54,046 bases of DNA, taken from assembly GCA_944323655.1 (NCBI GenBank), contig CALUTL010000014.1:1-54046 (forward strand), given 5' to 3'. Source of the stretch: Candidatus Gastranaerophilales bacterium (lineage in GTDB: Bacteria; Cyanobacteriota; Vampirovibrionia; Gastranaerophilales; Gastranaerophilaceae). Made by a program: the position numbers and the translations under genes. How positions within the stretch are numbered: position 1 is the stretch's first letter; each line of letters begins with the position of its first letter. This document shows positions 43,645 through 47,894 of the stretch, in pieces. The notes below the pieces were generated by a model. The model made no database searches. It had not been told where the DNA came from and was given only the letters and a program-made list of their open reading frames with translations.

Positions 43645-45870
43645 CTATAAAATATCCAGAGGATCAACGTCTACAGTAAGTTTTACATCTTTTGGCATTG
43701 TTATTCTGTTCAAAAAATTTGAAACAAATTGATGCCCCTTCTCGCCCATTTTGTTTTTTATAATAATCTGAAACCTGTACATCCCGTTAATTCTTTCAAT
43801 TACACAAGGTGTCGGGCCTAAGACTTCAAGCCTTTCTGAAATCCCGTATTTTTCAACCATTGTACACATCCTTAAAGCAATTTCCTGAGCTGATTTTTCT
43901 GCTCTAAAGTTGTTCTGTCCGCTTAGGATAAGTCTTACAATCTGGCTGAACGGAGGGTAGTCAAATTCTTCTCTTGCAATAATTTCCGTTGCATAAAATT
44001 CGTCATAATTTTGCGCCTTTGCACTTGCTAAAGCGTAATAATCAGGGTTGTAAGTTTGGAAGAAAACTTTTCCCGAAAATTCCCCTCGACCGGCACGCCC
44101 TGCAACTTGGGTAAGAAGCTGAAAACCTCTTTCGCTTGCTCTAAAATCAGGCAGGTTAAAACTTGCATCCGCTGAAATTACTCCAACAAGCGTGACGTTC
44201 GGATTATCAAGCCCTTTTGCTATCATTTGAGTCCCGACAAGAATATCAATGTCGCCTTTTTGGAATTTTTCCAAAAGTCTTATATGCTCACCTTTTCTGA
44301 CCAGAATATCGCTGTCAATTCTTTCAACATTTTTGTCAGGGAAAAGATCTTGAATATACTGTTCAATTTTCTGCGTTCCTGTTCCGCTGTTTTTAAGCGC
44401 ATCCGAACCGCATTCAGGACAAAAATCAGGAAAATATTCGCTGTGGTTACAGTAATGACACTTAAGCATTTGATCTTTGCTGTGCCAAATCATCGGAATT
44501 GCGCAATTCGGACATTCAATTACATGCCCGCAAGACTTGCACTGCGTAAATGTCGAAAATCCTCTGCGATTTATCAAAAGAATTACCTGTTGTTTGTTTT
44601 CTAACGTTTCTTTTATAGCATTTTGCAAAGGAATAGAAATAACGTTTTTATAAGCTGCCCGACCGTATTCCTGCATATTAATTACGGTCACAGGCGGAAC
44701 TTTTGCATCATTAAAACGCTTTTTCAATTCAAAAAGATTACCTGAATTTGTCGCCCGATAATAAGAGGAAATATCAGGAGTAGCAGAGCCTAAAAGAAGC
44801 GAGCATTTATGAAATTCCGCTAATTTTTGCGCCACAACCCTTGCATCATACCTCGGTGCGGGCGAAGTTTGTTTATAAGCCCCTTCATGCTCCTCATCAA
44901 TTATAATAAGCCCGATATCCTTTAAGGGCGCAAACACTGCTGATCTTGCGCCTGCAAGAATTTTAATTTCATTTTTATAAAGCTTTTGCCAAACATCATA
45001 CCGCTCGCCGTCAGAAATACTGCTGTGCCAGATTGCGACATCTTCCGTCCCAAATTTTTTGGCTAACCTTTTGGTTAATTGTGAAGCAAGCGCAATTTCA
45101 GGTGCTAGAAAAAGAACATTTTTGCCTGCATCAATACAATCTTTTATAAGTTTAAAATAAACTTCCGTTTTTCCGGATGCTGTCACCCCATGCAATAAAA
45201 TAGTCTGAGGAAGCATCTCGTCTTTTGGAAGATTAAACCCGCCGATTTTTTCCTTAATCCCTTTATAAACTTTTTCCTGCTCGCCGGACAATTCAAACAA
45301 AGGTTCCTTTTCCGAAATTCTTAAAATATCAAGCGGGTTTCTGTAAATATTTTCTTCAGCAAGTTTTAAACACCCCAAAGTTTCCAATTTTTTTACTGTT
45401 GCTCTTGTTGTTTTTGCCATCTTTTCAAAACTAATAAGTGGCATTTTGCCTGAATTTTTTAAGATTTCCAAAACTTCCGCCTGACGCTTTGTAGCTCCCT
45501 CAAAAGTTACAAATTCTACAGAAAACTCGGTTTTAGAGGCTTTTTCAATTAATTTCATCGGGATTGCTGCGTTTAAGACAGTCACCAAATCGCAACAATA
45601 ATAGTTTGCTACCCACTCTAACAATTTTAAATAATCAATAGAAAAAAGCGGGGTTTCATCAAGGATTTTACTCACCCTTTTGGCTTTAATGCCTTCAGGT
45701 AAATAATCAGAAAACCCCACGCAAAAAGCATTAATAAGCCCTTGTCTTCCAAACGGCACAAGAATCGCCTGACCTATTTGGATTTTGTCTTTCATTTCGT
45801 CGGGAATTAAGTAGCTGAATGTCTTAACTCCAAGACCGGTAATGTTTACAAGTGCAAGGGCGTATTTCAT
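43645..45870 (-). CDS. priA: Primosomal helicase PriA
   Basis: 741 residues. N-terminal 3'BD-like domain; Walker A in GVTASGKTEVY (near residue 228); DEEH box in IIDEEHEGAYKQ; paired zinc clusters in about residues 446-480 (CKSC, CPNC, CHYC, CPEC); helicase motifs VGTQMIAKGLD and GRAGR. Restarts stalled replication forks. Overlaps the PC4-like gene by one base (TAATG). Confidence 0.96.
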   Translation of the reverse strand: MKYALALVNITGLGVKTFSYLIPDEMKDKIQIGQAILVPFGRQGLINAFCVGFSDYLPEGIKAKRVSKILDETPLFSIDYLKLLEWVANYYCCDLVTVLNAAIPMKLIEKASKTEFSVEFVTFEGATKRQAEVLEILKNSGKMPLISFEKMAKTTRATVKKLETLGCLKLAEENIYRNPLDILRISEKEPLFELSGEQEKVYKGIKEKIGGFNLPKDEMLPQTILLHGVTASGKTEVYFKLIKDCIDAGKNVLFLAPEIALASQLTKRLAKKFGTEDVAIWHSSISDGERYDVWQKLYKNEIKILAGARSAVFAPLKDIGLIIIDEEHEGAYKQTSPAPRYDARVVAQKLAEFHKCSLLLGSATPDISSYYRATNSGNLFELKKRFNDAKVPPVTVINMQEYGRAAYKNVISIPLQNAIKETLENKQQVILLINRRGFSTFTQCKSCGHVIECPNCAIPMIWHSKDQMLKCHYCNHSEYFPDFCPECGSDALKNSGTGTQKIEQYIQDLFPDKNVERIDSDILVRKGEHIRLLEKFQKGDIDILVGTQMIAKGLDNPNVTLVGVISADASFNLPDFRASERGFQLLTQVAGRAGRGEFSGKVFFQTYNPDYYALASAKAQNYDEFYATEIIAREEFDYPPFSQIVRLILSGQNNFRAEKSAQEIALRMCTMVEKYGISERLEVLGPTPCVIERINGMYRFQIIIKNKMGEKGHQFVSNFLNRITMPKDVKLTVDVDPLDIL

Positions 45871-46100: not shown

Positions 46101-46152
46101 TTTTCGCTCTCCTAATTTTAATATAACAAACTAATACTATCACAAAAATAGT

Positions 46153-46181
46153 TTACAAAAACCTAATTTGTGTGCTAAAAT
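46153..46181 (+). promoter_or_regulatory. Promoter of the prepilin-like gene
   Basis: TTACAA (46153-46158), 17-base spacer, TAAAAT (46176-46181) with extended -10 TG at 46173-46174. Confidence 0.6.
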
Positions 46182-46215
46182 ATAAAAGTTAATAATTAAT
46201 CATTGGAGGTTTGAA

Positions 46216-47017
46216 ATGCAGACTATAACTGAATTACAGCGAGGGGGGGGGGGCACCCGATTCTAAATATTTTAAGGTAAAAAATGTAGGATTTACATTA
46301 GCGGAAGTTTTGATAACAATTGGAATATTAGGGGTAGTTATTGCTATGACTTTACCAGCTATCATTGGCAGCTACAAAGAAAAAGCCGCTACTACCCAAT
46401 TAAAAAAAACTTATTCTATATTATCACAAGCCTTTAACCAAATTGTAAGTGAAACCGGCGCTGATCCGCGTGGTTGGGGCATGGGAGATATGAATGACGC
46501 AAACACGCATATAATAATGGCTAATCAATTTGTTCCGTATTTAAATATTATGTACAATTGCGTTGGAAAAGATCAGGAATATACAAAAAAACATTGTATT
46601 GCCAATCCTGATTATTCTGATCCTACATATCGTGCAATTGTAAGATTAATAGATGGGACAACTTTAAGTTTTAGAAACTGGTTTGCAACTTGCAGCGGTA
46701 AATATGGAAATAATAAATATCTCCAAAATGTTTGTGGAGCTATAACGGTAGATATAAACGGACAAAAAAATCCTAATTTATATGGAAATGATATGTTCAT
46801 TTTTTATATGACAACTTACGGTATTTATCCGATTGGAACAGAATATGAAACCAGATTAACTTTTAGTGATTATTGTGATAAAACAAAAGGATGGGGAACT
46901 CTGTATAATAGTTTCAACAATGGTATAAGCTGCACTGCTTGGGTAATATACAACGAAAATATGGAATATCTCAAATGTACAGGATTAAATTGGGGCGGAA
47001 AAAAGAAATGCAGATAA
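46216..47017 (+). CDS. Type IV prepilin-like protein, frame broken at a G11 tract
   Basis: ATG 46216 has GGAGG 6 bases upstream and a promoter at 46153-46181, but its frame stops after 21 codons. Removing one G from the run at 46243-46253 joins it to the long frame ending at 47017, giving about 266 residues: a leader of about 29 residues with GGG encoded by the tract, cleavage site VG/FTLAEVL (Glu at +5), the hydrophobic helix LITIGILGVVIAMTLPA and a Cys-containing globular domain. Pilins of this type are cut and N-methylated by prepilin peptidase. As assembled it is out of frame: phase-variable OFF state, or a homopolymer sequencing error. Internal initiation at TTG 46310 would lose the leader. 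Confidence 0.8.
46243..46253 (+). repeat. Run of 11 G in the coding leader
   Basis: Eleven G in an otherwise AT-rich window, inside the leader-coding region of the prepilin-like gene; the kind of tract in which slipped-strand mispairing switches genes on and off. Confidence 0.9.
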
Positions 47018-47144: not shown

Positions 47145-47894
47145 ATGATAAAAGTTGCAGTATGCGGAGCTTTGGGAAGAATGGGACAAGAAGTTGTCCA
47201 AGCAGTTGAAAATGCGGAAGATATGGAGCTTGTCGCAAAAATTGACATCGCAGCAGACAACATGTACCGAACTATTGAAGAAGCCGCAAGAGTTGAAGAT
47301 ATTGATCTTCTCGTAGATTTTACCCAGCCTAAATCAATTTACGAAAACGCCTTGTATTGCTTAAACAATGGCATAAAAATCGTTATCGGAACAACAGGCC
47401 TAACAGATGAGCAAATTCAAGAATTAAGAAAACTTTCACTTCAAAAAAATACAGGCTGTTTTATTGCACCAAACTTTTCCACAGGAGCGGTTTTGATGAT
47501 GATGTTTGCCCGTCAGGCTGCAAAATATTTCGATAATTCCGAAATTATAGAATTTCACCACAACAAGAAAAAAGATGCACCCTCCGGAACTGCAGTCAAA
47601 ACTGCGCAAATGATGGCTGAAGAAAAATCCGATTTTGCCCTTGAAAATACCGACGAAGTTGAAACTATCGAAGGTGCAAGAGGCGGAGAGGCTTACTCTA
47701 ATATCCACATTCATTCTGTCAGAATGCCGGGATTTATGGCATCTCAAGAGGTTATCTTCGGCTCTCTGGGGCAGATTCTCACAATAAGACACGATTCTTC
47801 CGACAGAAAATGCTATATGCCGGGAGTTCTTCTTGCTGTCAGACACACTGCTCACGCAAATAATTTCGTCTATGGGTTAGATAATATTTTATAA
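47145..47894 (+). CDS. dapB: 4-hydroxy-tetrahydrodipicolinate reductase
   Basis: 249 residues from ATG 47145, preceded by AAAGGAG; the in-frame extension upstream has no site. GALGRMGQ (residues 7-14) binds NAD(P)H; FHHNKKKDAPSGTA holds catalytic His and Lys; RMPGFMASQEVIFGS and RHDSSDR are family blocks. Lysine/diaminopimelate pathway, cytosolic. Confidence 0.96.
   Translation: MIKVAVCGALGRMGQEVVQAVENAEDMELVAKIDIAADNMYRTIEEAARVEDIDLLVDFTQPKSIYENALYCLNNGIKIVIGTTGLTDEQIQELRKLSLQKNTGCFIAPNFSTGAVLMMMFARQAAKYFDNSEIIEFHHNKKKDAPSGTAVKTAQMMAEEKSDFALENTDEVETIEGARGGEAYSNIHIHSVRMPGFMASQEVIFGSLGQILTIRHDSSDRKCYMPGVLLAVRHTAHANNFVYGLDNIL

Follow-up and report, generated by a model that had tools for sequence, protein, structure and literature searches.

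The window that we analyzed, a 54,046-nucleotide stretch that is contig C14 of a Candidatus Gastranaerophilales genome (family Gastranaerophilaceae; 1.95 Mb in 33 contigs), carries a prepilin gene whose reading frame is broken by eleven consecutive G residues in its removable leader. This arrangement is confirmed. Comparison of the related sequences makes it probable, in our judgment, that the gene belongs to a default-off family of slippage-switched pilins whose resident tract is poised one slip from the ON length; the switching itself we infer.

The pilin gene of the window

The gene lies between priA (43645-45870, reverse strand) and dapB (47145-47894, forward strand), and it and its features listed in this paragraph and the next are on the forward strand. 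Its Shine-Dalgarno sequence, GGAGG (46205-46209), and the ATG at 46216 were read directly, as a first-pass annotation of this DNA had described them. Translated from this ATG as assembled, the leader ORF (46216-46266) encodes MQTITELQRGGGGTRF and ends at a stop codon at 46264-46266. Within it are exactly 11 G (46243-46253), the run to which the annotation had attributed the break in frame. The long prepilin ORF, recognized by translation, the N_methyl match, and dN/dS, is open from at least 46265, has its stop codon at 47015-47017, and is displaced by one base from the frame of the ATG, so that it requires one G fewer than the assembled tract. Translation of all frames showed that a change in length toggles the gene, with G11 out of frame and G10 and G13 in frame. 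The in-frame product at G10 (or at G7 or G13) is MQTITELQRGGGAPDSKYFKVKNVG followed by the mature part, which begins FTLAEVLITIG. The annotation had expected both a prepilin with a cleavage site at G10 and a tract coding only for glycine in the part that is removed, and both expectations were borne out at this locus: the tract sits ahead of the predicted cleavage between G and F (46291/46292), after which the predicted mature pilin, assigned from the prepilin motif and the AlphaFold model, occupies 46292-47017.

The "complete promoter" also claimed for the gene fared less well. A sigma-70-like site, TTTACA-18-TAAAAT, was found at 46152-46181 (10/12 in a consensus scan), in a stretch largely retained in two other species (G001 and G002). 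Because such sites are hardly more common in the region than in shuffled sequence (8 found vs 6.3 expected), the promoter is plausible only.

The predicted prepilin has a class III signal, with the G/F cleavage site ahead of FTLAEVLITIGILGVVIAMTLP, E5, and a hydrophobic stretch. In the genome scan it scored 25.0 bits with the Pfam family N_methyl (cut-off 21.2), and a shorter test gave 19, just below the cut-off. An AlphaFold model made with 22 relatives contains a long N-terminal helix (residues 12-64) and a globular domain with conserved cysteines (pLDDT 83, pTM 0.80), residues 1-27 being of low confidence. The best solved-structure match was the gonococcal pilin 1ay2, which was not significant (E 0.44), and sequence matches to solved pilins mainly cover the N-terminal helix. 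None of the fold matches was significant, and naming the pilin class by this route was abandoned. For prepilin peptidase, the source genome has one Peptidase_A24 gene above cut-off.

The locus is retained between priA and dapB in G001 and G002, with the Shine-Dalgarno sequence preserved and a protein identity of 87-89%. All three orthologues have G11 and all are out of frame, and dN/dS across the pilin ORF in the three species is 0.17-0.39. Judged by these ratios, the out-of-frame pilin ORF is under purifying selection. With every copy OFF, it would follow that the lineages pass through ON states or that the out-of-frame state gives some product.

At 35.8% GC, the expected number of G or C runs of at least 11 is 0.02 per genome and 0.0005 in the window. 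The source genome has seven runs of at least 11 G, every one in a prepilin leader (7/7), which rules out a chance run or a GC-rich island as the origin of the window tract. The sole other run of at least nine is a G9 within a Mur-ligase-like ORF. An eighth tract-bearing prepilin, on contig C11, has G8 in its leader, and two of the eight are in frame. The genome encodes about 27-30 prepilins, of which nearly all without a tract have short ordinary leaders.

Tracts and reading frames across the relatives

The first-pass annotation had proposed a search for other genes with the same kind of leader and G run, and had named a lack of the tract in related genomes as the finding that would speak against it. 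Seven more such genes are present in the source genome and hundreds in its relatives, most of which have tracts, and the window locus itself is kept in the two other species. Sequence records were scanned with a DNA pattern of G10, a gap of 12-42 nt, and FT-x-AE codons. Almost all of the matches listed were from Candidatus Gastranaerophilales; among them, three strays (Bifidobacterium, Coriobacteriales, and Treponema) had no prepilin at the site. In 241 sampled genomes of the order, the pattern occurred in 62 of about 219 genomes of the same family vs 1 of 22 in sister families, as counted with a pattern of at least 10 G that undersamples shorter tracts, and the reversed pattern had zero matches. 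The genomes compared are all assemblies, mostly MAGs, with one per species.

Tract number varies widely. Inside the source genus there are from 0 to about 63 runs of at least 10 G per genome. The two genomes with the most tracts are G022, with roughly 100 as estimated from overlapping matches, and G122 (BRZ_EH__bin71), with about 155 of at least seven. Prepilin counts track this richness, with 9-13 in tract-poor genomes, 27 in the source genome, and 71-149 in tract-rich genomes. Two members of the source genus lie at the poor end: G002, where the one run of at least 10 G in view is the orthologue of the window locus, has 13 prepilins, and G005, with no such run in view, has 9.

Across the relatives, 287 of 351 distinct runs of at least eight are in prepilin leaders, in a collection made partly with the pilin pattern. 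In a 400-kb sample of G122 chosen by position and not by pilin pattern, 50 of the 59 runs were likewise in prepilin leaders. Strict confinement to pilins was rejected, since the other nine of these 59, and two in G022, are elsewhere. The runs outside prepilins have 10-14 G and are located at L292:16436, L293:4437 and 17056, L294:2585 and 6066, L300:471 and 19368, L309:10923, and L311:1251 in G122 and at L094:8249 and L095:7384 in G022. Some lie within another long ORF or at its beginning, and in G122 the runs outside prepilins too are exactly C-G10-C.

Several records titled "Fusobacterium sp." (L125, L137, L139, and L203 of CAG:439; L113, L132, and L140 of NALB_7963_5) share their prepilin leaders and G runs with the Gastranaerophilales, and these titles are probably wrong. 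In Candidatus Gastranaerophilus phascolarctosicola Zag_221 (L134, L165, L183, L187, L199, and L217), assembly gaps (NN) fall inside or beside the G runs of prepilin leaders. The gaps may be caused by mixed tract lengths in the reads, or merely by sequencing difficulty.

Of the 272 tract-bearing prepilins with a Shine-Dalgarno sequence and ATG to which we assigned reading frames, 40 proved to be in frame; an extra G was counted in 115 and a missing one (equivalent to two extra) in 117, these calls resting on the choice of the ATG that carries the Shine-Dalgarno sequence. The source genus has 12 in frame, 64 with one too many, and 6 other (n=82), and the relatives of G022 have 10, 24, and 2, respectively. 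Among the relatives of G122 (n=93), 7 are in frame, none has one too many, and 86 have one too few, with a tract of G10 in 85 of the 93. In-frame copies are thus depleted (40/272 vs one third, or about 91 by chance; p 4e-12), and in the source genus each gene's tract varies with the length that would put the gene in frame, such lengths of 10, 11, and 12 being paired mostly with tracts of 11, 12, and 13 (p 2e-12); these p-values overstate independence, because the leader cassettes partly share descent. All 60 genes examined in G122 would be in frame at a length of 11 (or 8), even though their leader lengths differ modulo 3. A stop codon follows the tract by no more than 12 nt in the resident frame of 62/70 genes of the source genus and 77/86 of the G122 relatives; the third frame has one that close in 7/70 and 8/86, respectively. 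This early stop is not conserved in the G022 relatives, and so is a feature of two of the three groups.

Of 61 pairs of near-identical paralogues (at least 90% flank identity), 22 have tracts of unequal length, so the G run changes faster than its surroundings. In one pair the flanks match without exception for 77 nt upstream and for 64 nt downstream, yet one copy has G12 (OFF) and the other G11 (ON). Both ON and OFF copies occur among the paralogues, in-frame copies are found in most genomes, and a single tract shortened to G6 (L168) is in frame.

With the leading strand inferred from GC skew, the G run was on the skew-positive strand in four of the six genomes tested (56/59, 24/25, 18/18, and 13/14). 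The count for G022 was 19/26, and most of the exceptions belonged to a second leader type, whose runs are shorter. Leaders of this type (L102, L105, L108, and L109) have 46-49 nt from ATG to tract and 11-12 G and are on the opposite strand; the usual type has 27-33 nt and 13 G. The skews of G012 are near zero, which makes the test uninformative there. In prepilin genes on the other strand of G122, poly-C (proline) replaces poly-G (glycine), so that the strand of the G run is constant in either gene direction. The leaders at L262, L273, L279, L284, L285, and L290 have C10 (proline), and the motif that flanks the tract on the G strand is unchanged. Strand polarity and the poly-C genes therefore indicate a constraint at the DNA level, plausibly due to replication, and speak against a purely translational device.

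A probable account of the resident out-of-frame state

We picture the window gene as belonging to a large prepilin family, specific to the Gastranaerophilaceae lineage, in which a mutable run of G in the leader gates expression. With the resident run one base from coding length, translation would end just past the tract and the pilin would not be made, which would be the default OFF state. Occasional replication slippage to an in-frame length would yield a normal prepilin, and the glycines would leave with the leader, so that the mature pilin would be unchanged. Selection would preserve every gene intact and hold its tract at a length from which one favoured slip gives ON, and a population would contain rare cells displaying different pilins. 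A useful slippage rate in living populations, pilin production by ON cells, and the function of the pilin are likewise parts of this picture that we infer.

The direction of slippage is consistent with such poising. Short poly-G runs (up to G10 in the meningococcus, 8-9 in C. jejuni) slip by insertion and longer ones (10-11 in C. jejuni) by deletion (PMC4085013). Genes with a resident G10 are one insertion away from ON, and those with G11-G13 are one deletion away; the OFF length is therefore roughly on the side where the favoured slip would give ON.

Several observations count against this explanation. The three orthologues of the window locus differ neither in tract length nor in their OFF frame, and G10 in 85 of 93 genes of the G122 relatives is tighter than expected of a freely mutating tract. 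Plain phase variation does not require the early stop conserved in two of the three groups. MutS1 and MutL should lower slippage, and both are present in nine of nine genomes tested (the mutS ORF of the source genome is open over 878 codons), so loss of mismatch repair was rejected as a cause and slippage rates may be modest. The switch proposed in the first-pass annotation is accordingly only partly upheld: it was right about the prepilin, the leader, and the out-of-frame run, but simple random switching does not predict a fixed OFF class or G11 in all three orthologues. Those three out-of-frame orthologues and the nearly constant OFF class of each genus are better accounted for by a default OFF state from which one slip leads to ON than by a switch that flickers freely.

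A stronger version, which we put forward tentatively, is that the off-by-one state is itself selected throughout the family. A strand-polar, length-controlled G tract would then silence as many as about 150 genes in a genome, the majority of them for pilins, as a germline-like store that throws off rare ON cells or as a recoding site.

The off-by-one tract could also be the working state, with ribosomal frameshifting on the run, or RNA polymerase slippage by which some transcripts would gain or lose a G, giving a low, steady amount of pilin that in-frame alleles would over-express. An early stop in the starting frame behind a slippery run is the layout of programmed frameshift sites, and in the source genus and the G122 relatives the resident frame has such a stop far more often than the third frame does. 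The genes are like dnaX and prfB in this respect and in having an off-frame ORF behind the run. Recoding would also suit an out-of-frame class that is nearly fixed per genus (64 vs 6; 0 vs 86) and shared by three orthologues under purifying selection. We nevertheless consider it unlikely. The required shift is opposite in sign between genera, the poly-C (proline) genes of G122 obey the same rule as the poly-G genes, the early stop is not conserved in the G022 relatives, strand polarity is a DNA property, and in-frame copies occur in most genomes. Unlike dnaX and prfB, the Gastranaerophilaceae genes change shift direction with genus, vary in tract length and orientation, and include in-frame alleles.

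Two related devices were examined and rejected. One was a translation start within the pilin frame, but a search for an in-frame Shine-Dalgarno sequence with a start found none for most out-of-frame copies. The other was masking of the Shine-Dalgarno sequence by GCTCC 3' of the tract. Although conspicuous at many loci, this motif is missing from the window locus, and a related GCT motif at the same position beside the poly-C genes of G122 cannot mask the site, so masking is not a general device. In L064-L091 (G000, G001, and G008), GCTCC between the tract and the pilin is kept in three reading frames; it is complementary to the Shine-Dalgarno sequence AAGGAGC, with a possible hairpin.

It is improbable that the G runs are primarily a DNA element, that is, a strand-polar motif for replication, recombination, or pilin cassette exchange, with the effect on frame being secondary. 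The motif C-G10-C in G122 is nearly invariant, strand-polar, and present also outside pilin genes, and leader cassettes are common to paralogues with diverged pilin parts, as such an element would have it. However, each gene has its own Shine-Dalgarno sequence, start, and full ORF, promoterless cassettes feeding an expression site were not seen, and the source-genus tract length follows the reading frame, which a pure DNA element would not need. Homopolymer errors in sequencing or assembly, with the true lengths in frame, are a still less probable cause, even though all of the genomes are assemblies, mostly from metagenomes, and homopolymers are error-prone. The error would have to add one base in some genera and remove one in others, agree among independent assemblies in one genus (G122, CALUYO, and CAG:439), and spare the 15% minority; it is the change of sign by genus and the agreement across independent assemblies that make it unlikely. 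Least probable of all is that the tract-bearing copies are decaying and permanently silent, since, despite most being out of frame as assembled, they have long intact ORFs with dN/dS of 0.17-0.39, an intact Shine-Dalgarno sequence and start, and a single preferred OFF class.

Known phase-variable systems and the Gastranaerophilaceae

We found no paper in the open-access literature on phase variation in the Gastranaerophilales. The surface pilin diversity of the family is like that of Neisseria pilE/pilS, in which one expressed gene undergoes gene conversion from silent cassettes; in the Gastranaerophilaceae, by contrast, the genes are separate and complete, and every one has a start and a G run of its own. 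Meningococcal and gonococcal genomes contain an average of 15-18 poly-G tracts (PMC5953494). The poly-G and poly-C loci of Neisseria, among them pilC and the pgl pilin glycosyltransferases (PMC5953494), are similar in run length, in being intragenic in surface or pilus genes, and in ON/OFF control by frame. They differ in that the 15-18 tracts are spread over many functions, whereas in the Gastranaerophilaceae, where a genome has up to about 155, prepilin leaders hold most of them, a single OFF class is preferred, and the tracts are strand-polar. The product of pilC is associated with the pilus and is not a prepilin family like the one described here.

Campylobacter jejuni NCTC11168 has 29 phase-variable poly-G/poly-C loci (PMC4965091). 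It resembles the Gastranaerophilaceae in its intragenic poly-G runs of about equal length, in frame switching, and in being an AT-rich gut colonist. Its phase-variable loci are described as mostly surface-modifying enzymes (PMC8437040). The Gastranaerophilaceae differ in having their tracts in one structural protein family, inside a cleaved leader, and in the presence of MutS1 and MutL.

If the preferred reading, that of a default-off family of slippage-switched pilins, is true, these gut relatives of cyanobacteria, which are common but barely cultured, hold phase-variation repertoires several times those of Neisseria or Campylobacter. The repertoire would be concentrated in one surface-filament family, with the variable repeat removed along with the leader, and tract length in metagenome reads would be a sequence-readable handle on surface variation within the host. 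With one out-of-frame class fixed and the tracts strand-polar, the co-evolution of mutation bias and reading frame becomes testable. If the off-by-one state is itself selected, the family would have a switch system that spans the genome and serves almost one purpose, whereas the contingency loci described to date are scattered.
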